A stretch of DNA of 40,082 nt, from positions 1 to 40,082 of the IMG/VR virus record IMGVR_UViG_3300046010_003001; one strand, 5' to 3'. Source of the DNA: a virus. The position numbers and the translations under genes were made by a program. Positions 1,067 through 29,495 of the stretch are shown here, in pieces. Under the pieces are notes generated by a model. It made no database searches and was not told where the DNA came from. It saw only the letters and a program-made list of their open reading frames with translations. Position 1 is the stretch's first letter. Each line of letters starts with the position of its first letter.

Positions 1067-4000
1067 ATGTTGAGAGATGTTTTTTATTACGGCAAAAAAC
1101 CAAACGTCCATCCTAGAGAAAGATACGCAGAAAACTTAGAACATGCTCGGTCAATGGCTACGACCGAACATTTTTGGGTAATTAACGAGTCCTGTGATTA
1201 TAGAAATTTCGACTGGGATTTTGACTTTGAGTTCCTTCCAGATGAAGATGTATGGGCAGAGTCCCATAACAATGTGTGGCCCAGCCAACATCAAAAAGAT
1301 TCAGGCACCTGGCTTTGTTCTACAGAATTCAGTGACATTATCATTTATAGAAATGATGTTGAACCTGTACGTAGAAAAAATGAAAAGCATGATGCATGGG
1401 TAATTTTAGATAACGTTGACGAATCTAAGTTTGACTTCAGTTGGCATCCTGATCCAACCAGTCCTCCTTATATCTATAAGTGGGGAACTAAATTCTTTCC
1501 TGCGCAACTTAGGCACGTATTAGAATATCGTGTTAAGGGCGCTACACAAGAAAAGTATTTGGATAAAATTGTTGAGTTGCTACCTGAAACGGATCGCTGG
1601 GTAGAGTATCAAACAGTAGATCGTGAATACTTTGATTTGACATGGCGTCCTGATCCAATGGAGCCACCATACATTTATGTATGGGGTAACAAGTATGTAG
1701 ATGGTAAACTACAACCTACATTAGAGTATCATGCACCCAATGCTACAAATAAAAAATACATGCCTGAACCACTTAAAGTTTTGCCTGAATGGGATCGTTG
1801 GGTAGAGCATGTTCAAGTAGATAAAACTAAATTTGATTTTAGTTGGAGACCTGACCCACGTGAACCAGCATATAATTATGTATGGGGTAACAAGTACGAA
1901 GAGGCTGAATTAAAGCCCACATTAGAATATCGCATGCCGGGTGCAACAGCAATCAAGTACATGCCAGATCATGTACCTGTAGTACCACAATGGGATCGCT
2001 GGGTACTTGTAGATAAAACTGTTGACAAAGATAAGTTTGATTTTACATGGAGACCTGATCCACGTGAGCCTGCATACATCTATACTTGGGGTAACAAATA
2101 TATCTCTGCGGAGTTGCAACCTACACTAGAATATAGAATGGAAGGTGCAACTGAACGCAAATACATGGGTAATACTGTTGATGTATTACCGCAGTGGGAC
2201 ATTTGGGTTGAAGTTCAAACTATTGACAAAGAATTGTGTGTTAAAAACAATTTCGATTTTAGTTGGAGACCTGATCCACGTGAGCCTGCATATATCTATA
2301 CATGGGGTAATAAGTTCATTGAAGCAGAACTAAAGCCCACACTAGAATATCGTATGTCAGGTGCAACTGAACGCAAGTACATGGGTAACAATGTTGAAGT
2401 GTTGCCACAATGGGATCGTTGGGTAGAGCAAGTTCCTGTTGATAAAGAGCGTAGCACTAAGAACGGCTTTGACTTTAGTTGGAGACCTGACCCACGTGAG
2501 CCGGCATTTATCTATACATGGGGTAACAAATATGAAGAGGCTGAATTAAAGCCTACATTAGAGTATAAAATGGACGGCGCTACTGAACGTAAGTACATGG
2601 GTAATGATGTTGAAGTGCTGCCTCAATGGGATCGCTGGAACATTATTCACGATGTTATCAAGTCTACATTTGATTTTAGTTGGAGACCTGACCCACGTGA
2701 GCCTGCATTAACTTATGTGTTTGGCAATGAATTGTACGATGGCACTATCATGCCTACCATTGAATACAAAATGAAGGGCGCCACTGAAAAGAAATATATT
2801 AATGATTGGACTAAGCCTAAGTTAAAACCAAATAAGAATTTATTTGAACACTTAGAAGATAGTTACAATATTGATTATAGTTGGAGACCTAATCCAACTA
2901 GCCCTCCCTACATTTATGCATGGGGCAATCAGTGGAACAAGCCAGAAGATAAGATTAGTATTCAGTATGTAGTAGAGGGTGCTACAGAATACAAGTACAT
3001 GGAAGAACGTGCAACACGTAAACCATGCATGGATAACTGGGAAGTTCCTGAAAACTTAGACGTTTCAAAGTTTGACTTTAGTTGGGAACCTAGTCCGGCT
3101 GACCCGCCATATATCTATCAATTTGGTACTCAGTGGCAAAAGACAGGTGGTCCTAGATACGTAGTACCTGGTGCAACCGAAGTCAAGTACATGGGAACAC
3201 TCAAGGCAAGACGATTGCCGTCAATTGACAACTGGACTGTGCCAAGTTATATTGACAAAGACAGTTTCGATTTCAGTTGGCATCCAGATGATACAAGTCC
3301 TCCCTATGTATATCAGTTCCCAACACAGTGGGCTATTGCAGGTGGACCAGTGTACACTGTAGAAGGTGCAAAAGAAAATAAGTTTGTCGATTCACCGTTG
3401 GCAAAAGCCAAACCAAACAAAGATAACTGGGAAGTTAACAAATATGTTGACAGTGACTTGTTTGACTACAGTTGGCATCCATATGTTGATGATGAACCTT
3501 ATATCTATCAGTTCGGCACTCAGCATCAAAAGACGGGTGGACATAGATATATTACGCCGGGTACACACAAAAACAGCCCTGTAATGTATGTTGATGCACG
3601 TATTCTTAAATCAAAGCGTTTAGAAAATAAATCTAAGTTTACTGTATTAAACGATTATAAGATTAAAGAATTTGATTATAGTTGGCACCCTGACGAGACA
3701 GAAGAGCCATACATTTATGTGTTTGGTAACAATCAGTATCCTGCTGAAATCATGCCTACGATTGAATATCGTATGCCCGGAGCAACACAAGTCAAGTATG
3801 TTAACAATATTATTGCCACACTTGATACTGATTTGACTAACTGGGAAATTCCCGACAATGTTGATACAACAGGGTTCGATTTCAGTTGGAAACCTAATCC
3901 AAAAGAACCTGCATACATTTATGAGTTTGCTACTCAGTGGCAAAAGACAGGTGGTCCTCGCTACATTGTAGAAGATGCGACTGAGGTTAAATATTTAGAT

Positions 4001-7000
4001 AGTCAAAAGGTTAAGCGTCTGCCTTCAACCGACAACTGGACTGTGCCTAGTTATATTGACAAAGAACAGTTTGACTTTAGTTGGCATCCCGATGCAACTA
4101 GTCCAGCATACATTTATCACTTTCCAACACAATGGGCATTAAGTGGTGGACCTACTTATACAGTAGAAGGGGCAGTTGAATCTAAGTTTGTAGAAGACCA
4201 ACAAGCCGTAGCATTAGTTGATAAGACTAACTGGGAATATGATACAGACTTAATTGACGAAACTAGTTTCGACTTTAGTTGGCATCCATATATTGAAGAT
4301 CAGCCTTATATCTATGTCTTTGGTACACAGCATCAAAAGACAGGTGGTCCAAAGTATATTACACCGGGCTGTCATAAGAACAGTCCTGTAAAATATATTG
4401 ACACACGTATTCTTAAGGCAAAGAGATTGCCATGCATGGACAATTGGAAGATCATTGATGACGTTGTAGTTGATGAATTTGACTATAGTTGGCATCCAGA
4501 CGAAACTGAAGAGCCATACATTTATCAATTTGGCAACAATCAATACAGTGCTGAGATTATGCCTACTTTGGAATACAAAGTTAAGGGTGCAACACAAATA
4601 AAATATGTTAACACGATTGTTGCTAGGTTAGGAAAAGACTTGACCAATTGGGAAATTCCCAATAATATCGATACGTCTGAGTTTGACTTTAGTTGGAAGC
4701 CTAATCCTAAAGATCCTGCTTATGTGTATGAATTTGGCACACAGTGGCAAAAGACAGACGGCCCTTGTTATGTAGTAAAGGGCGCAACAGAAAGAAAGTA
4801 CATTGATGGGTCAAAGGCTAAAAGATTATCTAGTAAAGAAAATTGGACCATTCCTAGCAACATTGATATTACTGGATTTGATTTTTCATGGCATCCAGAT
4901 AATACTAGTCCTGCTTACATTTATGTATTTGCAACTCAATGGGCACTCAGCGGCGGACCTGTATACACAGTTCCTGGAGCAACTGAAACAAAGTATGTAG
5001 AAGATCAATCTGCAAAGTCATTACCAGATAAGACTAACTGGGAATTTGACAGTAATCTTATTGATGAAACAAGTTTCGATTTTAGTTGGCATCCATACGT
5101 AGAAGATCAACCATACATTTATCAATTTGGTACACAATGGCAAAAGACCGGTGGTCCTGTATATAAGACACCTGGCGTTCATAAGAACAGCCCTGTAAAA
5201 TACATTGACACACGTATTCTTAAAGCAAAGAGATTGCCTAACGGCTCATCTAATTGGAATACATTACATGACTATCAAATTGTAGACTTTGATTACAGTT
5301 GGCATCCTGACGATACTGACGAGCCATACATTTATGTGTTTGGTAACAAGTACTATTCAGCCGAGCAAATGCCTACGATTGAATATCGTATGCCAAACGC
5401 CACTCAAGTCAAATATGTACATAGTCCTGTAGCAACATTAGCACAAGATAAAACTAATTGGGATATTCCTACTAACGTAGACATTAGTAATTTTGACTTC
5501 AGTTGGAAGCCTAGCCCATTAGAACCTGCATATATCTATCAGTTCGGTACTCAGTGGGCTAAGACTAGAGGTCCACGATATGTTGTTAAGGGTGCTAAAG
5601 AAGTAAAGTATATTGATAGCACTAAAGCAAAGGCATTAGACACTAGAAAAAATTGGGAGATTCCTAAGACACTAGACATTAGTGAATTTGACTTTAGTTG
5701 GCACCCAGATGATACTGATCCTCCCTATATCTATCAGTTCGGTACTCAGTGGGCATTAACTGGTGGTCCAAGATATGTAGTTGAAGGTGCCAAAGAAGTA
5801 AAGTATGTTGAATCTATTATTGCTAAGGCAAGATCCAACATGACTAACTGGGAAGTACCTGCGAATATTGATAACAAGTCCTTCGACTTTAGTTGGCATC
5901 CATATGCGGAAGATGATCCGTTCATCTATCAGTTTGGTACACAGCATCAAAAGACAGGTGGACCTCGCTATCTAGTACCCGGTGCTACAAAGATTAAGTA
6001 TGTTGATACACGTGTTCTAAAGGCAAAGAGATTGCCAGATAGAACTAACTGGTATGTTCCTGAAAACACTGACGTATCAAAGTTTGACTTCAGTTGGCAT
6101 CCTGATGAAACTGCTGATCCTGCTATCTATCAATTTGGTAGTGTTGTAGGTAAAGATGACGGCCCAAGATATATTGTACCTAACAATGATGGTAAGGTAC
6201 TATTCTTAGAAAATCTTTATGCAGAAGAAACAGAAGAAAAATCTGTAGCAAAATACTTTATTGAAACTACACTAGAAGATTTAATCAGTCTGCATCCAGA
6301 TGAAGTCTTTTGGGCATTGAACAGAGACTTGGATTACTCTAAGTTTGACTTTGATTGGAGACCAGATGTATACCAATCAAACTACATTCATGCCTTTGGT
6401 TCACGTGACAACATTGACACTCAAACATATTTTGTCAATGCTGTTATTTGGGAAAAGGGATTTAGAAATATCAACTATATCGAAGATGATAAGATTCAAA
6501 TTAAAGCGAACCTTGACATGTTCTATGTTGATAGAGGAAACCCTGAGGCTCAAGCAAGATTTGACGCACTAAAAGCACGTTTCCCTAAGATTCAAAAGAC
6601 TCGATATCTTAACAGTTGGGTAGACACAATCAATCGTTGTACTAATCGTGCATCAACAAGTTTGTTGTGGGTATTAAACTCAGAACTAGACTATAGCAAT
6701 TTTGATTTTGAATACTATCCTAACGCATGGCAAATGAAGATGGTTCATGTGTTTGGTACACAGTGGAGTCACTGGGGAACTACGTTCATGGTAAATCGTG
6801 AATCATTCTCTAATGATACCAAATACATCAAAATCATTGAGCATTTGAACAATCTAAACTTTGTCAAGGACAATCGTGCTAAGGCAACTAAGTGCATCTA
6901 TGACATAGTATTGATCGATCACGGCAACAGTGAGACAACTACAATTGTTGAACAACTTAAGCAAAAGGCTCAAGATAAGCAGGTCATTACTGTAAAGTAT

Positions 7001-8236
7001 AGTGAGAGTTATTTAAACACTCTACATCAGATTTTAAGTAAGCAGCCTGAAAAGAAAGAACATTACTTGTGGATTTGCAGTAGCGTATGTGACTACCGTG
7101 ATTTTGATTTCTCATATGTATGTGATCCATTTGCTAAAGATCAGTTGCATGTATTCCCTAGTGGTAAGCAAAAGTTTGGTGACACGTTCTTTATTGACGT
7201 TAATAAGACACGTGAAATCATTTCTGATATGAAGGTATTGGAAGACTACCATAAGGTTAATTACAACTCTACAATGCGTGTATCTCGCTTACCTGAACCT
7301 ATCATTTCAATAAGTGATGATACTATGGTAAACATTGCACAGCAAGTCAATGATTGGCCATATGCAACTATTATCAGTGAAGGTAATAGTGATATTGAGC
7401 AAATTGAAGTTGAGCCTATGAACTTATGGCAACCTGACACTAAAAACATTATGGTTACCAGCACAGGCGCAACTAGAATTATTGTACCGCGAGAAGCAAA
7501 AGATTTCATTAAGAAAGAATTATATGATTATCCTTACATTAAGAAATCTGCTAAACTTGCAAAGAGTAATCCACTAGATATCGTATTCTTAAGCAACGGT
7601 GAAACTGGTGCAGATGAAAACTATGAACATCTATTGAAGATAACTAAGGGTCTTAAGAACCGTGTTGTCAGAGTAGATGGAGTTAATGGTCGTGCAGCCG
7701 CATATCACGCTGCCGCAGAAGCAAGCAACACACCTTGGATGTTTACAGTGTTTGCTAAATTGAAAGTTAGTGCTAAGTTCGATTGGAACTGGCAACCTGA
7801 TAGAATGCAGGTGCCTAAGCACTATATCTTCCAAGCAAAAAATCCTGTGAACGGACTTGTATATGGTCACCAAGCAATGATTGCTTATAACAAGAGATTG
7901 ACACTCGCCAACGAAGGTAAAGGATTAGACTTTACACTAGATGACGAGCATGAGGTAGTAGAACTATTGTCAGGTACTGCAATGTACAACACGGATTCTT
8001 TCTCAACATGGCGTACAGCCTTCCGTGAAGTATTGAAGTTACGTGCCGAAGATAGTGATGTTGCCCGTGAGCGCCTGGATGCCTGGATGAACAAAGCCGA
8101 AGGGGATTTTGCTCAGTACAGCATCCAAGGCGCAGTCAATGCCGATGAGTATTATGATGAAGTTGACGGTGATTTTGAACAACTCAAGTTGTCATATGAG
8201 TGGGCGTGGTTGCGTGAAAGATTTGAACAACTATGA
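1067..8236 (+). CDS. Giant tandem-repeat protein (2389 aa) of glycosyltransferase-like half-domains
   Basis: One uninterrupted frame encodes about 24 good copies and several decayed copies of a 65-70 residue unit. The consensus is FDFSWxPDxxxPxYIYxFG, followed by P(T)xEYxxxGATxxKY and then W(E/D/R) about 10 residues on. Units near nt 1427-2870 use the form RPDPREP...WGNKY...ELKPTLEY. From about nt 3068 four kinds of unit alternate in a fixed order: QWQKTGG, QWALSGG, QHQKTGG plus DTRILKAKRLP, then AEIMPTIEY. Decayed copies near nt 1170-1330, 6330-6800 and 7070-7190 have the form LWVLNxxxDYSxFDF. The last ~220 residues (DIVFLSNGETGADEN, then VNGRAAAYHAAAEASNTPW, then FDWNWQPDRMQ, then NPVNGLVYG) look like a complete GT-A-type domain. 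The repeats resemble its second half, with no DxD motif visible. The product could be a virion or surface protein or a scaffolded glycosyltransferase; function is unknown. The ATG at 1067 is the first plausible start and no signal peptide is seen. Confidence 0.9.
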   Translation: MLRDVFYYGKKPNVHPRERYAENLEHARSMATTEHFWVINESCDYRNFDWDFDFEFLPDEDVWAESHNNVWPSQHQKDSGTWLCSTEFSDIIIYRNDVEPVRRKNEKHDAWVILDNVDESKFDFSWHPDPTSPPYIYKWGTKFFPAQLRHVLEYRVKGATQEKYLDKIVELLPETDRWVEYQTVDREYFDLTWRPDPMEPPYIYVWGNKYVDGKLQPTLEYHAPNATNKKYMPEPLKVLPEWDRWVEHVQVDKTKFDFSWRPDPREPAYNYVWGNKYEEAELKPTLEYRMPGATAIKYMPDHVPVVPQWDRWVLVDKTVDKDKFDFTWRPDPREPAYIYTWGNKYISAELQPTLEYRMEGATERKYMGNTVDVLPQWDIWVEVQTIDKELCVKNNFDFSWRPDPREPAYIYTWGNKFIEAELKPTLEYRMSGATERKYMGNNVEVLPQWDRWVEQVPVDKERSTKNGFDFSWRPDPREPAFIYTWGNKYEEAELKPTLEYKMDGATERKYMGNDVEVLPQWDRWNIIHDVIKSTFDFSWRPDPREPALTYVFGNELYDGTIMPTIEYKMKGATEKKYINDWTKPKLKPNKNLFEHLEDSYNIDYSWRPNPTSPPYIYAWGNQWNKPEDKISIQYVVEGATEYKYMEERATRKPCMDNWEVPENLDVSKFDFSWEPSPADPPYIYQFGTQWQKTGGPRYVVPGATEVKYMGTLKARRLPSIDNWTVPSYIDKDSFDFSWHPDDTSPPYVYQFPTQWAIAGGPVYTVEGAKENKFVDSPLAKAKPNKDNWEVNKYVDSDLFDYSWHPYVDDEPYIYQFGTQHQKTGGHRYITPGTHKNSPVMYVDARILKSKRLENKSKFTVLNDYKIKEFDYSWHPDETEEPYIYVFGNNQYPAEIMPTIEYRMPGATQVKYVNNIIATLDTDLTNWEIPDNVDTTGFDFSWKPNPKEPAYIYEFATQWQKTGGPRYIVEDATEVKYLDSQKVKRLPSTDNWTVPSYIDKEQFDFSWHPDATSPAYIYHFPTQWALSGGPTYTVEGAVESKFVEDQQAVALVDKTNWEYDTDLIDETSFDFSWHPYIEDQPYIYVFGTQHQKTGGPKYITPGCHKNSPVKYIDTRILKAKRLPCMDNWKIIDDVVVDEFDYSWHPDETEEPYIYQFGNNQYSAEIMPTLEYKVKGATQIKYVNTIVARLGKDLTNWEIPNNIDTSEFDFSWKPNPKDPAYVYEFGTQWQKTDGPCYVVKGATERKYIDGSKAKRLSSKENWTIPSNIDITGFDFSWHPDNTSPAYIYVFATQWALSGGPVYTVPGATETKYVEDQSAKSLPDKTNWEFDSNLIDETSFDFSWHPYVEDQPYIYQFGTQWQKTGGPVYKTPGVHKNSPVKYIDTRILKAKRLPNGSSNWNTLHDYQIVDFDYSWHPDDTDEPYIYVFGNKYYSAEQMPTIEYRMPNATQVKYVHSPVATLAQDKTNWDIPTNVDISNFDFSWKPSPLEPAYIYQFGTQWAKTRGPRYVVKGAKEVKYIDSTKAKALDTRKNWEIPKTLDISEFDFSWHPDDTDPPYIYQFGTQWALTGGPRYVVEGAKEVKYVESIIAKARSNMTNWEVPANIDNKSFDFSWHPYAEDDPFIYQFGTQHQKTGGPRYLVPGATKIKYVDTRVLKAKRLPDRTNWYVPENTDVSKFDFSWHPDETADPAIYQFGSVVGKDDGPRYIVPNNDGKVLFLENLYAEETEEKSVAKYFIETTLEDLISLHPDEVFWALNRDLDYSKFDFDWRPDVYQSNYIHAFGSRDNIDTQTYFVNAVIWEKGFRNINYIEDDKIQIKANLDMFYVDRGNPEAQARFDALKARFPKIQKTRYLNSWVDTINRCTNRASTSLLWVLNSELDYSNFDFEYYPNAWQMKMVHVFGTQWSHWGTTFMVNRESFSNDTKYIKIIEHLNNLNFVKDNRAKATKCIYDIVLIDHGNSETTTIVEQLKQKAQDKQVITVKYSESYLNTLHQILSKQPEKKEHYLWICSSVCDYRDFDFSYVCDPFAKDQLHVFPSGKQKFGDTFFIDVNKTREIISDMKVLEDYHKVNYNSTMRVSRLPEPIISISDDTMVNIAQQVNDWPYATIISEGNSDIEQIEVEPMNLWQPDTKNIMVTSTGATRIIVPREAKDFIKKELYDYPYIKKSAKLAKSNPLDIVFLSNGETGADENYEHLLKITKGLKNRVVRVDGVNGRAAAYHAAAEASNTPWMFTVFAKLKVSAKFDWNWQPDRMQVPKHYIFQAKNPVNGLVYGHQAMIAYNKRLTLANEGKGLDFTLDDEHEVVELLSGTAMYNTDSFSTWRTAFREVLKLRAEDSDVARERLDAWMNKAEGDFAQYSIQGAVNADEYYDEVDGDFEQLKLSYEWAWLRERFEQL

Positions 8237-8880: not shown

Positions 8881-10158
8881 ATGGCTAATCCCGTTATTCT
8901 CAATTATATCAAAAATCACGTAGACAGTAAGGGTGTGCCCACAATCTCAAATGACAAGTGGAACACCTTTATTACTCAGCATTCACAACAAGATATCAAG
9001 GAAGCACTTGCTGAATATATCATAGCCAATAATATTTCATTCCCTATTAAGGGAATTACTCAGCAAGAGTTCGAAGATAACTTTTTGAAGTTCTGTAAAA
9101 CTTCTATGCTTGATGAGTACAAAGATTTTGATACTGTATTAGAAAAGTATCAATACAAATACAAGTATGAAGATAAGCCATTAGGTGTAATCGACAAGTC
9201 ACATGTATATAACAAGTCTAGCGATTACTTTCAAGAACTAAATCGTATGAAGTGTGGTAGCACACTTGTAGACAGTCCTTATAATATTTGGACTACAAAG
9301 CATAAACTTGCTAAAATGAATTGGCACTTTTGGCGTAAAGGTGCGTTAGGTACTAGCGATATTTGTGCGGCTACATTCCGTAGTGCATTTCGTTTAGGTA
9401 CATATACTGCTACACAGTTTAAGCCTAGTGTTGCAAAGGCACTATATGAAAAGCACAATGCTATTAATATACTTGATACAAGTTGTGGATGGGGAGACAG
9501 ACTTGTAGGATTCTACGCTACACCCAACACACGAATTTATGTAGGGTGTGATCCTAACCCGGATACATTTGCAGTGTACAAACAGCAATGCATTGAGTAT
9601 GAACGTTTACTAGGTGGTAAGCCAATTATTGTAGAAAATGTCAACTATTTTAGTTGCACGGGCGTTAAACATGTAGAGATATGGAATCTACCGAGCGAAG
9701 ATGTTGATTGGAAGTTGTATGAAAACACATTTGACTTTTACTTTACATCACCTCCTTACTTTGAAACTGAAAAGTATGCAGAGTCAACTAGCAAGGTAGA
9801 TGAACAATCTTGGAAGCGTTATCCCGATTACCAGTCATGGAAGAATGATTTCTTCTTTAAGGTAAATCGAATGGTGTGGGATACATTAACTGACGATGCA
9901 TATATGATGATTAATATTGTTCCACCGTTAAGAGTACGAAGTAAGACTAATCTTTGTGATGAAATGGTTGATGATATCAAGACCTATCCTAATGCACATT
10001 ATTTGGGTAAGATCGGAATGCGATTACAGGCTAGACCTCACGTGATCAGCAAGACAAAGAACGGTATCTACATTGAACCTATCTATGTGTTCAGAAAAAA
10101 CAACAATAATTACCCAAAATCTGATGATTTCCACCATTTATTCAGTTTTAAGGCTTGA
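8881..10158 (+). CDS. SAM-dependent DNA methyltransferase (N4/N6 amino type)
   Basis: The 425-residue protein has a SAM-binding motif I, ILDTSCGWGDRLVGF (about residues 197-211), then YVGCDPNPDTF. The catalytic motif IV is FTSPPYFETEKY, with TSPPYF at residues 289-294. The S/D-PPY/F signature is typical of enzymes that methylate the exocyclic amino group of adenine or cytosine. The first ~150 residues have no motif I know and may hold the target-recognition part. No restriction partner is visible, so it is probably an orphan phage methylase for self-protection or regulation. The last codons AAG GCT TGA are part of the next promoter's AAGGCTTGAC block. The target base and site are unknown. Confidence 0.85.
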   Translation: MANPVILNYIKNHVDSKGVPTISNDKWNTFITQHSQQDIKEALAEYIIANNISFPIKGITQQEFEDNFLKFCKTSMLDEYKDFDTVLEKYQYKYKYEDKPLGVIDKSHVYNKSSDYFQELNRMKCGSTLVDSPYNIWTTKHKLAKMNWHFWRKGALGTSDICAATFRSAFRLGTYTATQFKPSVAKALYEKHNAINILDTSCGWGDRLVGFYATPNTRIYVGCDPNPDTFAVYKQQCIEYERLLGGKPIIVENVNYFSCTGVKHVEIWNLPSEDVDWKLYENTFDFYFTSPPYFETEKYAESTSKVDEQSWKRYPDYQSWKNDFFFKVNRMVWDTLTDDAYMMINIVPPLRVRSKTNLCDEMVDDIKTYPNAHYLGKIGMRLQARPHVISKTKNGIYIEPIYVFRKNNNNYPKSDDFHHLFSFKA

Positions 10159-10692: not shown

Positions 10693-11685
10693 ATGAAAGT
10701 ACGTTGTATAGATGCATGGGATAGTATCCATGATCAAGAAGCCTTTGTTCGTGATGTGACAGAAAATCATTATGATCGAATAATTATCTTTGGTCATAGA
10801 GAAATTGAACTACTAGTCCTAAAAAATAATCCCCATTTATTATCATTGCCAATTGAGAGTGTAATTGGTGCGGGAGAATTTATTGTCCCTAGACAATATC
10901 CAGTGACCAGTCACTGGAAAGAATGGTTTTTCATGCAATCATTGTCGCATTGGAAGGCTAATCATAAATTGCCTACTGAATATATTAAGCACGAAAAGAA
11001 ATATCATTTTGTATCAATGAATGATCGAGGTCATGAGCATCGTTGCTACATGATAGATCAATTAGCAAAATACAATTTAATTGAAACTAACGCAGTCTCA
11101 TGGAGAAATCATTTTTATAGCAGTGAGTTTAAGTTTGATTGGCAGTATTTTCAACCTAGAAAAATTATGTTAGATGGCCCTGAGGGTTATGATAAAGATA
11201 GGGCTTGGTTTAACTTACCAAAACAGTATAATCAATCATGCTTTCAATTGATAAGTGAAAGCGCAATGGATGCAACATTCATTACAGAAAAGACTGTGGG
11301 CGCATTGTTTAACTTTATGCCTTTTATTACTATTGGTTCAAAGCATTTTTATAAACAACTCAGAACTTTAGGCATTGTTGATTATGATGAATTGTTTGAC
11401 TATTCATTTGATGAAGTAGATGATAATAATCTACGCACGGATATAGTGATCGAAAATGTCAATAGATTAGTCCAAATGCCTTTACATGAATTAGAACTTT
11501 TAGTAGACTCTATCAAAGATAAATTGATTTACAATTTTCATAGGTCGTGTGAGATTTCTTTATCATATGATAAATGGCATCCATTAGCATTAGAGACAAT
11601 AGACATTTATAATACAACCGGTGAAGTTTATAATCAATCTATAATCAACACTTATGTAACATTGGTGGGGCATTTTAATAAATAA
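10693..11685 (+). CDS. Putative glycosyltransferase-like protein (330 aa)
   Basis: The gene begins four bases after the exported-protein gene. The clearest block is CFQLISESAMDATFITEKTVGALFNFMPFITIGS, followed by FYKQLRTLGI. It resembles the nucleotide-sugar site of fucosyltransferase- and exostosin-like GT-B enzymes, where a Ser-Glu then ITEK(T) precede a 'PFI..G' strand. The N-terminal part (DRIIIFGHREIELLVLK) could be the first Rossmann half. No Shine-Dalgarno of note is seen. It sits in a phage region rich in sugar-related genes. Assignment rests on one motif region, so the general class is moderately sure and the donor and acceptor unknown. Confidence 0.55.
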   Translation: MKVRCIDAWDSIHDQEAFVRDVTENHYDRIIIFGHREIELLVLKNNPHLLSLPIESVIGAGEFIVPRQYPVTSHWKEWFFMQSLSHWKANHKLPTEYIKHEKKYHFVSMNDRGHEHRCYMIDQLAKYNLIETNAVSWRNHFYSSEFKFDWQYFQPRKIMLDGPEGYDKDRAWFNLPKQYNQSCFQLISESAMDATFITEKTVGALFNFMPFITIGSKHFYKQLRTLGIVDYDELFDYSFDEVDDNNLRTDIVIENVNRLVQMPLHELELLVDSIKDKLIYNFHRSCEISLSYDKWHPLALETIDIYNTTGEVYNQSIINTYVTLVGHFNK

Positions 11686-11712
11686 GAATATTGCTGTATG
11701 AAGCAATGAAAA

Positions 11713-12010
11713 ATAAGTCTTGGACCCGGGGGCGGTACCCGGCAGGTCCACCATAGACACATTGTTTAGTTATGGGTTTGGCCCCGGGATTTGCGTATGC
11801 GAGTCGGCAGTGTGTCTATGATGGGCCTGAAATAGGATCGACAGGGCAAAGAGTATCAGAGTGGACAGCACGGCAAGGTAGAAGTCGTTAGGATTGGGGG
11901 AACCCGGTCGAAGAAGCAGAAAACATAATTGCAAATGACAATTATTACACTGAGGAACTACGCCTAGCGGCGTGAGTCTCACGGGGTTGACTACCTTGTA
12001 ACCCAATAGT
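11713..12010 (+). ncRNA. ssrA: Circularly permuted (two-piece) tmRNA gene
   Basis: tmRNA rescues stalled ribosomes by acting as tRNA-Ala and then as a short mRNA. Here the halves are in permuted order. The acceptor half comes first and ends CAGGTCC-A-CCA at 11743-11753, preceded by a T-arm of CCGGG (11726-11730), a 7-base loop GGCGGTA and CCCGG (11738-11742). The coding half starts GGGCCTG at 11823-11829, which pairs over all seven positions with CAGGTCC. The third pair is G-U, the alanine identity element. It then reads GGATCGACAGGG, matching the tmRNA 5' consensus. The tag frame is at 11931-11975, and a GGGTT/AACCC hairpin (11984-12004) closes the coding half. A 10-bp stem, 11752-11761 with 11811-11820, would bring both ends together before the spacer is cut out. 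Outer ends are estimates; I can see only part of helix P2. Alphaproteobacteria have this layout. Confidence 0.93.
11931..11975 (+). other. tmRNA proteolysis-tag reading frame
   Basis: GCA at 11931 is the likely resume codon because GCAAATGAC matches the conserved GCAAAYGAC of tmRNA genes. Translation gives ANDNYYTEELRLAA and then TGA. The start (ANDN) and the Leu-Ala-Ala end are as expected for tags read by ClpXP-type proteases in alphaproteobacteria. Confidence 0.9.
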
Positions 12011-12013
12011 CAG

Positions 12014-12040
12014 AAAAGGCACTTCGGTGCCTTTTCTTTT
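12014..12040 (+). terminator. Rho-independent terminator after tmRNA
   Basis: AAAAGGCAC (12014-12022), a TTCG tetraloop and GTGCCTTTT (12027-12035) form a perfect 9-bp stem, followed by CTTTT. It ends the tmRNA transcript just before the late promoter of the next gene. Confidence 0.92.
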
Positions 12041-12052
12041 GGTTAAACTGAC

Positions 12053-12063: not shown

Positions 12064-12864
12064 ATGAAGAAGTATCGATCCATTTTTATTTCAGACGTTC
12101 ACCTTGGTACTAAAGATAGCCAAACAGGAAAACTTAACAACTTTTTGAAACATAACAGTTGCAATACATTATATTTGGTCGGGGATATCATAGATGGATG
12201 GAAGATACAACAAAATAAATGGCGTTGGAAACAAAGTCACACTAATGTAGTTCGTAGAGTATTAGGTCATGCCAAACGTGGAACTAGAGTGGTATACGTA
12301 GCGGGCAATCACGATGAATTTTTAAGAACAATGATACCCTACAATTTTACTTTTGGTTTGATAGAAATTCATAACCAAATAGAACATGTCGGTGCTGATG
12401 GCAAACACTATCTAGTCATACATGGTGATTTGTTTGATGGCATTACTAGACTAGCGCCTTGGATAGGATTTTTAGGGGACAAAGCGTATGATATCATTTT
12501 ATCGCTTAATAGCAGATTCAATTGGATCCGTCATCGTATGGGTTTTGGGTATTTTAGTATTAGTAAATATCTTAAACACAAAGTAAAAAAAGCGGTTGAT
12601 TTTATATTCCAGTTTGAAAAAAACTTGGCAGCATATTGTAAAAAAAGAGATTACGATGGAGTTATTTGTGGACACATACACCACGCAGAGATCAAAGAGA
12701 TAGACGGCGTTACATATATGAATGATGGTGACTGGGTAGAATCATGTACTGCACTAGTAGAACATCATGATGGTCGTTGGGAAATCGTAACTTGGACTAA
12801 GGAGAAAGATGATGAAAGTAAAGAAGATAGTAAAGAAAATGTATCAAGCAATATTGAACCATGA
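12064..12864 (+). CDS. LpxH-like UDP-2,3-diacylglucosamine pyrophosphatase / metallophosphoesterase
   Basis: The full calcineurin-type metal-site set is present: SDVHLGT (D11, H13), GDIIDGW (D41), GNHDE (N82, H83), VIHGD (H120) and GHIHHAEI near residues 206-213. The pattern and 266-residue length are those of the LpxH-like COG2908 group, which cleaves UDP-2,3-diacylglucosamine to lipid X in lipid A synthesis at the inner membrane face. The C-terminal ~20 residues are a charged tail (KEKDDESKEDSKEN). It is placed behind a late promoter after the tmRNA terminator. Lipid A change during late infection is one idea; another phosphodiester substrate is possible. Such a gene is unusual in a phage. 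Confidence 0.8.
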   Translation: MKKYRSIFISDVHLGTKDSQTGKLNNFLKHNSCNTLYLVGDIIDGWKIQQNKWRWKQSHTNVVRRVLGHAKRGTRVVYVAGNHDEFLRTMIPYNFTFGLIEIHNQIEHVGADGKHYLVIHGDLFDGITRLAPWIGFLGDKAYDIILSLNSRFNWIRHRMGFGYFSISKYLKHKVKKAVDFIFQFEKNLAAYCKKRDYDGVICGHIHHAEIKEIDGVTYMNDGDWVESCTALVEHHDGRWEIVTWTKEKDDESKEDSKENVSSNIEP

Positions 12865-14736: not shown

Positions 14737-16572
14737 ATGGACATTAAAGAACTCAATTCATTCAAACTATCAGATGCCGTGAAGTTTCACGACAAGTTGA
14801 ACCCTAATCTTTGGATGGGTAGCAGATTAGATCCTGCTGTAAAAAAGCAGTTATTATTGATTGCTGAAGATTTCATTACTGAATTGGGTATTAAAGATTT
14901 AGACGTAGAAGACGTAACCATATCAGGGTCTAATGCGGCTTATACATATACTCCTCATAGTGATTTAGATTTACATATCTTAGTTGATATGGATAAATTC
15001 CCTGCTGATGAAGTTTATCGTGAATTGTTTCAAGCAAAAAAGACATTGTACAATGACACACATGATATCAGTGTTCACGGTGTACCAGTAGAATTATACG
15101 TACAAGACAAGAATCAACCTGTAGTTAGTTTGGGTGAGTATAGTTTATTGAAAGATAAATGGCTCAAGTTTCCAACTAAGCGTAGGGCAAATTTAGATCA
15201 AAATGCTACAAGAGCAAAGTACGAACGATTAAAAGAACTTGTAGAACTTGCATTAAGAACACGTGATTTAGAACGTGTGACTAAAGCACTATCATTGATC
15301 AAGCGTTATAGAAAAGCAGGACTAGACAAAGGCGGAGAGTTTAGTCCAGAGAACTTAGCCTTTAAGGTTATTCGTAAGCAAGGTGGAATTCAAAAACTAT
15401 ATGACTTACGCAATGAATTGCATAGTGAAGAGTTGACCATTGAAGAAATGTATTCTGGCCCCAAGATGAAATTCTTACGTCCTGGCGAGTTAAAAGGGTC
15501 ATACACTGACTACCAATTATTAGGTATGGGTTTTAAAAAGGCACAGAATGGTTCATGGTATATTCCACAAGTTAAGTGGGATAAACTTAGAGCATCAAGT
15601 CAGATCGGTGAAGATGATTTAAACGAAAAATACGCAAAAGAATTTGAAGAGTATGATCCTACATTTAATATAGAGGAAGGTGCAGATAATACGCCTTCGA
15701 TTGGAATTAATATACGTGATGATGGCGATATTCGTTATGCTGATTTAATTGTTGATGGAAAAAAGAAATACGAATCACGAAGAACCAATAGTCTTAATCC
15801 GTATATAGGTAAAACTGTAGGTATCATTAGAACCGGTAAAGGACCTGCAGTTGCGATTGGTCAGGCAACAATAGGCGAACCGATAATAGTTGATGCAGAT
15901 AAATTTGATAAACTACGCAACCAACATTTAGTACCTAAAAATAGTAAATTTGACATTGATAGTGATGGTACAAAATATCTGTATCCAATGATTAATCCCA
16001 TTCGCTGGGACAATGAAAAACCAATAAAGCATAAAGGAATTGTTTCTAGGAAAATTCAAGAGCAAGATGTAGCAGAAGGCATTTTTGACAGATTCAAAAA
16101 ACATTTAACTGCCGACCGCAACGGAATACATTTAACAGCAACTAAAGATGAAAAAAGACTTATAGTAGATGCTATCTACAACGATGAAAGAATAGGTAAC
16201 GCAATATTTCAAGTTCAAGGTAAAAATTTAGTAGCAGCCGGAGTGGGAGTAGCACGTGAATATCAAGGTAAAGGAATTGGCAAAATTATATATGACTGGG
16301 TTAAAGAACTTGGTTATACTTTAAATCGTAGTCCTTATCAAACTGATGCAGGCAAAGGATTTTGGGATAAGCACAAAGGTGTTGAACAAAACGTTTGGGA
16401 AGCATCAGGATATATTCCATCAGCAAAAGAAAAGAACGATCCTCGCTTTAAATCTGCACTAACAGTTGACGTTAAGCCTGATAGTATCAAAAAGAATGCC
16501 AAAGCATTTAGTTGGTTAACATCACGTGCCGGCATACCTCCTGATGCTAGACCCGACGGCAAAATCAAATAA
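14737..16572 (+). CDS. Nucleotidyltransferase - ASCH-like - GNAT acetyltransferase fusion (611 aa)
   Basis: Three domains can be read. At about residues 60-130 is a pol-beta-type nucleotidyltransferase: ISGSNAAYTY, then HSDLDLHILVD gives the GS...DxD site, with VPVELYV as a later acidic strand. At about 325-430, YADLIVDGKKKYESRR, IGKTVGIIRTGKG and AIGQATIGEPI look like an ASCH/PUA-type RNA-binding fold. At about 450-545 a GNAT domain has the acetyl-CoA loop VAREYQGKGIGKIIYDW. Linkers are acidic; one, QEQDVAEGIFDRF, resembles a short peptide seen between domains of other phage proteins. A late promoter abuts the start. The set would suit modification of tRNA or of another RNA or protein, but no substrate is shown. 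The exact fusion is unfamiliar to me. Confidence 0.75.
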   Translation: MDIKELNSFKLSDAVKFHDKLNPNLWMGSRLDPAVKKQLLLIAEDFITELGIKDLDVEDVTISGSNAAYTYTPHSDLDLHILVDMDKFPADEVYRELFQAKKTLYNDTHDISVHGVPVELYVQDKNQPVVSLGEYSLLKDKWLKFPTKRRANLDQNATRAKYERLKELVELALRTRDLERVTKALSLIKRYRKAGLDKGGEFSPENLAFKVIRKQGGIQKLYDLRNELHSEELTIEEMYSGPKMKFLRPGELKGSYTDYQLLGMGFKKAQNGSWYIPQVKWDKLRASSQIGEDDLNEKYAKEFEEYDPTFNIEEGADNTPSIGINIRDDGDIRYADLIVDGKKKYESRRTNSLNPYIGKTVGIIRTGKGPAVAIGQATIGEPIIVDADKFDKLRNQHLVPKNSKFDIDSDGTKYLYPMINPIRWDNEKPIKHKGIVSRKIQEQDVAEGIFDRFKKHLTADRNGIHLTATKDEKRLIVDAIYNDERIGNAIFQVQGKNLVAAGVGVAREYQGKGIGKIIYDWVKELGYTLNRSPYQTDAGKGFWDKHKGVEQNVWEASGYIPSAKEKNDPRFKSALTVDVKPDSIKKNAKAFSWLTSRAGIPPDARPDGKIK

Positions 16573-17624: not shown

Positions 17625-18725
17625 ATGTCTCAAGTTTCTGACAATCTCACTGTTACTAGCGTTCAGGCCCGCAAAGCGATCCTGACCGCATTCAAGTCTA
17701 AGCGTCCCGTTTTTCTTTGGGGCCCTCCCGGCATCGGCAAGTCTGAGGTCGTGAGTGAAATCACTGATGAACTCGGTGGTTATATGATCGATCTGCGTAT
17801 GGCTCAGATGGAGCCGACTGATATTCGTGGTATCCCTTACTTCAATAAAGAACTTAACAAGATGGACTGGGCCGAGCCCGTCGATCTTCCCGATGCTGAA
17901 CTCGCAAGTCAGTATCCTATCATTGTTCTCTTCCTCGATGAAATGAACAGTGCGCCTCCTGCTGTACAGGCGGCTGGCTATCAACTTATTCTTAACCGTC
18001 GTGTTGGCAAGTACAAGTTGCCTGACAATGTTGTAATTGTTGCGGCAGGCAATCGTGATAGTGACAAGGGTGTTACTTATCGTATGCCGATGCCCCTTGC
18101 TAATCGTTTCATTCACCTTGAAATGCGCCCTGATTTTACATCTTGGCAGAACTGGGCTGTTGGTAAGGCAATTCACAAGGACGTAGTTGGTTACTTGTCT
18201 TTCGCAAAGCAGGACCTCTATGACTTTGATGCTAAGTCATCAAGCCGTGCATTCGCTACTCCCCGTTCATGGACCTTCGTCAGTGATTTGCTTGATGATG
18301 AAGAAAATGTCGATACTGACACTCTCTTCAATCTTGTAGCAGGTGCTGTTGGTGATGGTCTTGCTACGAAGTTTATGGCACACCGCAAGGTTGCAGGTCG
18401 CATGCCCGACCCCGCTGACATTCTTAGCGGTAAGGTGACTGACTTGCAGGTCAAAGAAATCAGTGCGATGTACTCACTCACTGTTTCTATGTGCTATGAA
18501 CTCAAGGATGCACTTGACACTAAGACCGCTGATCGTAAGAAGTTCCATGAAATGGCTGACAATTTCTTCAACTACATGATGAAGAATTTCGAAACTGAAC
18601 TTGTTGTTATGGGTGCTAAGATTGCACTTAAGACTTACAAGTTGCCGATTGAGCCTTCTCAGTTGAAGAACTTTGATGAGTTTCACAAGAAGTACGGCAA
18701 GTACATTGTGGAAGCAGGCAACTAA
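17625..18725 (+). CDS. MoxR-type AAA+ ATPase
   Basis: The 366-residue protein has Walker A GPPGIGKS (residues 33-40), Walker B VLFLDEM (101-107), the sensor-1 Asn in VIVAAGNRDSD (N143) and the arginine of MPLANRFIHLEM (R161). The pattern FLWGPPGIGKS with LANRF is that of MoxR-family ATPases, which work with a VWA-domain partner as chaperone-like remodelling or cofactor-insertion machines. A VWA protein with a zinc-protease motif is encoded about 0.9 kb downstream. Both share the strong promoter type and C-rich codon use. The C-terminal ~150 residues are helical and hold no clear motif. A strong terminator follows. The client in the infected cell is unknown. Confidence 0.9.
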   Translation: MSQVSDNLTVTSVQARKAILTAFKSKRPVFLWGPPGIGKSEVVSEITDELGGYMIDLRMAQMEPTDIRGIPYFNKELNKMDWAEPVDLPDAELASQYPIIVLFLDEMNSAPPAVQAAGYQLILNRRVGKYKLPDNVVIVAAGNRDSDKGVTYRMPMPLANRFIHLEMRPDFTSWQNWAVGKAIHKDVVGYLSFAKQDLYDFDAKSSSRAFATPRSWTFVSDLLDDEENVDTDTLFNLVAGAVGDGLATKFMAHRKVAGRMPDPADILSGKVTDLQVKEISAMYSLTVSMCYELKDALDTKTADRKKFHEMADNFFNYMMKNFETELVVMGAKIALKTYKLPIEPSQLKNFDEFHKKYGKYIVEAGN

Positions 18726-28345: not shown

Positions 28346-28750
28346 ATGAGAGCAAGAGAATTCATTACTGAACAGCGTTTAGATCAAGTTCATGATGGTT
28401 TAGAGGTAGCATCTAAATCACTTCCCGGCACCTATGTTATAACGGACTTAAAGAATAGTGACTTCTATGATTTATATCGTTTTGGTATTGCTATTGCCGC
28501 AGTAAGAGGTGAACAAGGACAAAATGACGGGGTAATGGACGGACATGAACCTAAATTCAGAGCAGAAAGCGCCTGGGGAGAACATCAAGTAATTACTAGT
28601 TTTGACCCTAATGTAGGTAAGGTAATTGATAAAGCATTAAGCAAAGTTGGGAAGCGCGGTAAAAAGTTAGCAAGTACTCCAAGTAGTGATGAGATGGATG
28701 ACACCTCTGACAAGTCTCCTATTAAAGCCTTCAAAGGATATAAGAGATGA
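28346..28750 (+). CDS. Tandem paralogue 1 with EFITE N-terminus (134 aa)
   Basis: It begins MRAREFITEQ and ends SPIKAFKGYKR, ends shared with the next two genes. In between, DLYRFGIAIAAVRGEQGQND, then HEPKFRAESAWGEHQVITSF match their middle 'YxLNRxxMAxAxTDG' and 'SWAxRxNxAHPYT' regions, with the AHPYT segment lost or changed. ATG lies three bases after the previous stop. The family is unknown; the short N-terminal tag also begins proteins in other marine phages as I recall, which might mark proteins for packaging into the capsid. Confidence 0.7.
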   Translation: MRAREFITEQRLDQVHDGLEVASKSLPGTYVITDLKNSDFYDLYRFGIAIAAVRGEQGQNDGVMDGHEPKFRAESAWGEHQVITSFDPNVGKVIDKALSKVGKRGKKLASTPSSDEMDDTSDKSPIKAFKGYKR

Positions 28751-29121
28751 GAGCCAGCGAATTCATTAGCGAAAGTTACAAAGCCGCTAAACTAACTAAA
28801 CGCCAACGATATGCTAGTAAAGGAATGCATAAGTTTCGTGATCCAAACGGATTCGATAGAACTTATGAAATGAATCGTTTGGGTATGGCATTAGCATGCA
28901 CAGACGGCGAGATTGATCCTGTGATTGACCAAGAATCTTGGGCCGGTAGATTTAATACAGCGCATCCATACACTGATGCAGAACAACGTATGTTGAAAAA
29001 AGCATACAAGGCTATGGGAACATCCTATCAAGACTTAAACGGCGGTGACCTACATAGTGATGAGTTACCTAATACTAATATTAAGAGTCCCGTAAAGCCC
29101 TTCAAGGGTTATAAAAAATGA
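28747..29121 (+). CDS. Tandem paralogue 2 with EFISE N-terminus (124 aa)
   Basis: Starts MRASEFISES and ends SPVKPFKGYKK. The middle FRDPNGFDRTYEMNRLGMAL, then ESWAGRFNTAHPYTDAEQRM is closest to the third copy. It overlaps both neighbours by ATGA, so the three are one translational unit. Likely a recent duplication. Function unknown; a compact helical domain between two short conserved ends is what can be seen. Confidence 0.75.
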   Translation: MRASEFISESYKAAKLTKRQRYASKGMHKFRDPNGFDRTYEMNRLGMALACTDGEIDPVIDQESWAGRFNTAHPYTDAEQRMLKKAYKAMGTSYQDLNGGDLHSDELPNTNIKSPVKPFKGYKK

Positions 29122-29495
29122 GATTTTGGGAATTTATCACAGAGGGGAAGAAAAAAATCCCTGACTCTCCCAAACACCACAGCGACCCCTTAACCGGATT
29201 GCATAGATTTACTGATAGTAACTATGACCGTTTCTATCTATTAAACCGTGTAATGATGGCAGCAGCCAGTACTGACGGCAAAACTCCACCTGAGATGGAT
29301 AGCAACAGTTGGGCATCTCGCCACAATGTAGCACATCCCTATACCAAAGAAGAACAAGATAAATTGATGCTAGCATACAAAGCAGCCGGCGTAAGAATGT
29401 TTGATGACTTAACTGACGGTGATGTGTCTAGTACGGAATCAAGTGGCGCCAATACAAGTAGCCCAGTTAAGCCTTTTAAGGGCTATAAAAAATAA
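29118..29495 (+). CDS. Tandem paralogue 3 with EFITE N-terminus (125 aa)
   Basis: Starts MRFWEFITEG and ends SPVKPFKGYKK. The core TGLHRFTDSNYDRFYLLNRV, then NSWASRHNVAHPYTKEEQDK aligns by eye with copy 2 over its length. Identity between copies 2 and 3 is clearly higher than with copy 1. Three copies of one small gene in a row behind a structural gene suggests a dosage need or that the ends are used as tags. Function unknown. Confidence 0.75.
   Translation: MRFWEFITEGKKKIPDSPKHHSDPLTGLHRFTDSNYDRFYLLNRVMMAAASTDGKTPPEMDSNSWASRHNVAHPYTKEEQDKLMLAYKAAGVRMFDDLTDGDVSSTESSGANTSSPVKPFKGYKK

Follow-up and report, generated by a model that had tools for sequence, protein, structure and literature searches.

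The stretch of DNA analysed here, which we call the window, is an entire IMG/VR record of 40,082 bases, and its plus strand carries a permuted (two-piece) tmRNA gene at 11690-12041. It is matched by the Rfam models RF04321 (tmRNA_permuted; 11692-11975, 109.2 bits, E 1.4e-20, against a curated threshold of 47) and RF01849 (alpha_tmRNA; 11634-12016, 84.1 bits, E 1.6e-21, against a threshold of 50), with E-values that exclude a chance resemblance, and ARAGORN likewise calls a permuted tmRNA with the tag ANDNYYTEELRLAA. The parts of the gene are:

11690-11753, + strand: acceptor piece, comprising the leader, T arm, acceptor 3' strand and encoded CCA (RF04321 start at 11692, 7/7 cofold pairing; 5' end approximate)
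11726-11742, + strand: T arm with stem CCGGG/CCCGG and loop GGCGGTA (sequence, alpha_tmRNA consensus, covariation in relatives)
11743-11749, + strand: acceptor 3' strand CAGGTCC, followed by the discriminator A73 (11750) and CCA (11751-11753) (sequence, pairing)
11754-11822, + strand: spacer of 69 nt between the pieces, a long hairpin extending the acceptor stem (predicted -27 kcal/mol)
11823-12011, + strand: coding piece, starting GGGCCTG (covariance models, cofold; mature 3' end not fixed)
11931-11972, + strand: tag frame ANDNYYTEELRLAA, with the stop TGA at 11973-11975 (ARAGORN)
12012-12037, + strand: intrinsic terminator-like hairpin with a TTCG loop and a T-rich tail to 12041 (kept in relatives with altered stem letters)

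The acceptor half lies 5' of the coding half, and 11743-11749 pairs with 11823-11829 at 7/7 positions, including G3-U70. This alanine identity pair, the discriminator A and the CCA are all present, as are the hydrophobic end and TGA stop of the tag frame, and the block GGATCGACAGGG sits just within the 5' part of the coding half. The first-pass annotation of this DNA had described the same arrangement (CAGGTCC-A-CCA ahead of GGGCCTG, seven pairs with a G-U at position 3, the tag frame, the GGATCGACAGGG block, the T arm with its GGCGGTA loop and the TTCG-capped terminator); all of these elements were located in the sequence, and the coordinates and the cofold agree with the pairing. It had delimited the gene as 11713-12040; the gene stands, while the start had been set about 20 bases too far downstream, as the acceptor piece reaches approximately 11690, where the RF04321 match begins. 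Its two-piece reading is borne out by both Rfam models, by ARAGORN and by covariation in relatives, the match to the alpha_tmRNA model being the check that it had proposed, and the T-loop type that it had linked to alphaproteobacteria is indeed that of the alpha_tmRNA consensus (GGCgGUA). The spacer is presumably cut out of the precursor. A promoter scan of the locus gave 11 candidate sites, none of them convincing, where shuffled sequence gives 9.0 +/- 3.0.

The proposal that the gene is phage-encoded is corroborated by the contig, which codes for a large terminase subunit, a UvsX-like recombinase, an ssDNA-binding protein, thymidylate synthase (ThyA) and DHFR among its genes. The terminase finds its best matches in jumbo phages, namely PA5oct (51%), Sinorhizobium phage Phosso (49%) and Agrobacterium phage Atu_ph07 (52% over 81% of the length). 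Judged by sequence, the carrier is probably a T4-like jumbo phage; the contig itself is a fragment, and the jumbo size is deduced from the terminase matches together with the lengths of related contigs, 244-364 kb. A megablast of the 12 kb around the tmRNA locus against 50,697 phage records gave no match, and hence there is no close isolate among them. The same locus with its flanking genes recurs at essentially 100% identity in three contigs from other metagenomes, which excludes an assembly accident.

Adjoining the tmRNA, 12064-12864 encodes a calcineurin-like phosphoesterase, by reading similar to the LpxH-type lipid A enzymes, and is followed by a family 2 glycosyltransferase; the two are possibly host-surface modification genes. 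The COG2908 RNA motif (RF02939) occurs near the tmRNA in two relatives (L147:159-203 and L236:2298-2342), but despite the LpxH-like metallophosphoesterase gene beside the tmRNA no match above threshold is seen in the window. Elsewhere in the window, 1067-8236 encodes a 2389-aa protein with internal repeats (with many self-like matches in relatives), which is conserved upstream of the tmRNA locus, and 28346-29495 encodes three small, similar proteins in a row, each beginning MRaxEFITE, an apparent tandem duplication.

Folding and covariation of the RNA

Folding of the full precursor is much more stable than that of its shuffles (z -4.7), and when the two mature pieces are folded together all 7 acceptor pairs form, in keeping with the earlier expectation that the acceptor and tag parts fold together. 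Plain cofolding gave no acceptor stem in two relatives (L182 and L186), though their sequence can form it. In an alignment of 26 members, comprising the window and 25 sequences from this and other phages, the encoded CCA and G3-U70 are each constant (26/26). Across its 18 distinct sequences, the 12 pairs of the acceptor and T stems are standard in 216 of 216 cells, although the acceptor percentage is biased to structure because members were found partly by tmRNA models and with a filter of at least 6/7 pairing, a selection that did not apply to the T stem. Eight of the 12 pairs have changed on both sides, and all 5 T-stem pairs show such double changes. None of 500 shuffles reached any of the five covariation measures, and with slid partners the pairing falls to 43-67%. 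A close comparison is offered by L138, which is 97% identical to the window in the core columns that the two share: here the leader block and its partner block in the coding half differ together, and in the spacer hairpin one stem pair has gone from G-C to T-A, a compensatory change.

Retention, type and tags across the phage lineage

Related loci were obtained by two protein searches in IMG/VR. A permuted tmRNA scoring over the family threshold was found in 39 of the 50 related viral records; as many of the others are short fragments, this is a minimum for the sample, whose members were picked in part because they have the region. Wherever the gene order is visible the tmRNA occupies the same place, flanked upstream by either the long protein with repeats encoded at 1067-8236 of the window or the protein of 8881-10158, and downstream by the proteins of 14737-16572 and 17625-18725. 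No permuted tmRNA exceeds the threshold in PA5oct or Atu_ph07, and the standard tmRNA model (RF00023) gives on these two and Phosso only sub-threshold matches of 18-90 nt, which are probably tRNAs. In Phosso we observed a permuted alpha-type tmRNA (PV764938.1:349596-350198) with the tag ANDNVSTKVALAA and a very long spacer, which is unannotated in the record. The spacer of another relative is filled by a 133-aa open frame (L147:2176-2577; MRINEVTESIQVPKYLYKW...) with no Pfam or PHROG match, and that of its close relative L142 is just 88 nt long. Two further relatives, L167 (31209-31772) and L168 (78829-79392), yield a pair of weak, partial permuted-tmRNA matches of 41 and 35 bits, separated by about 400 bases; these may represent a tmRNA whose spacer contains a large insert, as in L147.

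The alphaproteobacterial comparison made by the first-pass annotation held only in part. The window copy scores 84.1 bits with alpha_tmRNA, above the threshold of 50, as against 65.2 bits with beta_tmRNA (RF01850), below that model's threshold of 84; it is likely an alpha/beta mosaic, and as an alpha RNA it scores low. The lineage has both types: beta_tmRNA fits some of the copies, with scores of up to 146 bits, and alpha_tmRNA fits others, and close relatives of the window have beta-type forms at the same locus. A pure alpha origin of the window copy is weakened by its beta score and by these relatives. On a tree of five core proteins from 41 records, at least 3 changes are required to explain the alpha labels, and the group formed by the window, L138 and L139 stands apart from the main alpha group. 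These labels follow the better of the two Rfam scores and are uncertain for five weakly scoring alpha copies, one of which is that of the window.

The annotation had also credited the phage with a tag of its own, which is supported as far as it can be tested: the tag occurs in 12 viral contigs, and neither an exact copy of it nor a match to its degenerate pattern occurs in 84,980 species genomes, an absence that is weak evidence since tags vary between species. The exact acceptor/T-arm pattern of the window likewise has 0 matches in those 84,980 genomes. Within the viruses the window tag is found on at least 4 acceptor/T-arm backbones. One of its carriers, L218, though distant from the window on the phage tree, agrees with it at 87.5% over the 96 bases of the tag and flanks, as against 69.8% over the whole coding half; L225, in turn, has nearly the backbone of L139, yet a different, beta-like tag (ANDSQFALAA). 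The tag retention in the former and the mismatch of backbone and tag in the latter suggest that tmRNA segments have been exchanged between phages.

Function, alternatives and significance

Permuted tmRNAs, as in Caulobacter and others, arise from a precursor that is split into two pieces; the RNA is alanylated and carried by SmpB, and its tag is translated before release. We found no SmpB in either of two sets of related phage records (0/11 and 0/50, with two records common to both) in a search that gave matches in 10 of 14 control genomes; as the window is a 40-kb fragment, the gene may lie elsewhere in its phage. We hold, with a probability of roughly 0.85, that the locus is a complete, permuted tmRNA gene of a T4-like, probably jumbo, phage, working via host processing, host AlaRS and host SmpB. 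This explanation best accounts for the model matches, tag, cofold, covariation, retention, synteny, SmpB-less relatives, identical contigs and viral genes taken together. Host enzymes would cleave a single transcript at the CCA end of its acceptor half and at the G1 that opens the coding half, discarding the spacer and leaving two pieces joined through the acceptor stem and one further helix. Host AlaRS would then alanylate the RNA through G3-U70 and host SmpB would carry it into stalled ribosomes, where it would append ANDNYYTEELRLAA to the unfinished protein and free the ribosome, the -LAA end marking the product for ClpXP-type proteolysis. Transcription, processing, charging and tagging, as well as the host and the benefit, are inferred. 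Most likely the RNA is a working tmRNA for which the host supplies SmpB and the processing enzymes, and its benefit would probably lie in keeping ribosomes in use during host mRNA degradation.

The lack of detected SmpB in related phages would also agree with a decoy that binds host SmpB and blocks host trans-translation instead of performing it. There is a precedent of sorts in the tag-less tmRNA-like RNA of DS6A, which inhibits tmRNA and is a proposed SmpB binder (PMC4131195). However, a decoy needs no reading frame, whereas the window and those relatives for which a tag was determined have an intact tag frame, stop and -LAA end, and we consider this reading improbable. We regard it as very unlikely that the gene is a functionless passenger, either a recently captured copy of a host ssrA or an integration-site remnant: ssrA is a frequent integration site of genomic islands (PMC11915505) and the gene sits among moron-type genes, but its retention across the related records, the compensatory changes in its stems and spacer hairpin, the intact terminator and tag, and the absence of its exact acceptor/T-arm from the species genomes all speak against such an origin. 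The contig being metagenomic, host contamination or misassembly could in principle have placed a bacterial ssrA in it; the identical locus and flanks in three other contigs and the similar synteny in diverged phages refute this for practical purposes.

To our knowledge, phage tmRNAs are rare in isolate collections. A phage two-piece tmRNA as such is already published: the OM43 methylophage Melnitz has one, described in a paper that proposes 53 two-piece cases among phage genomes (PMC9004378). Like the window, Melnitz has a complete permuted ssrA of alpha type in a lytic T4-like phage, with a possible mismatch between tmRNA type and host; unlike it, the window shows no glutamine riboswitch by Rfam, which is described with the Melnitz tmRNA, and belongs to another lineage, related by terminase to PA5oct and Phosso. 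A tmRNA is also present in the Sinorhizobium jumbo phage AP-J-162 (PMC11242549). DSS3_MAL1 (annotated ssrA, MN602268) and Phosso (PV764938) share with the window an alpha-type permuted tmRNA and a lack of detected SmpB, but theirs are purer alpha RNAs (113 and 108 bits, against 57 and 25 for beta), and the Phosso tag differs from that of the window. In DSS3_MAL1 a GOLLD RNA lies just upstream of the tmRNA (925-1388 of its excerpt L127). With the bacterial alpha_tmRNA (RF01849, Caulobacter type) and beta_tmRNA (RF01850) the window copy shares the permutation, T arm, G3-U70 acceptor stem, tag and processing logic; it differs from them in its mosaic scores (84 versus 65 bits) and its acceptor/T-arm. 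Huge phages, too, encode ribosome-rescue genes in giant genomes, with the difference that both tmRNA and SmpB are among them (PMC7162821), whereas no SmpB was found in the window's lineage.

Lineage-wide retention and a mosaic character of a phage tmRNA were not met in the literature searched, which is no proof of their being unreported. What this analysis adds is that the tmRNA recurs through a whole phage lineage, with its tags swapped and alpha- and beta-proteobacterial features mixed. Tentatively, it may be viewed as an exchangeable cassette: at a single fixed locus, recombination would bring together RNAs of alpha, beta or mosaic type with tags specific to the phage, fitting ribosome rescue (or the choice of a degradation tag) to each host with a permuted tmRNA, and always relying on host SmpB. 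A lineage with a near-constant tmRNA, compensatory change and a varied tag and backbone constitutes a natural data set for weighing the saving of ribosomes against the choosing of proteins for destruction.
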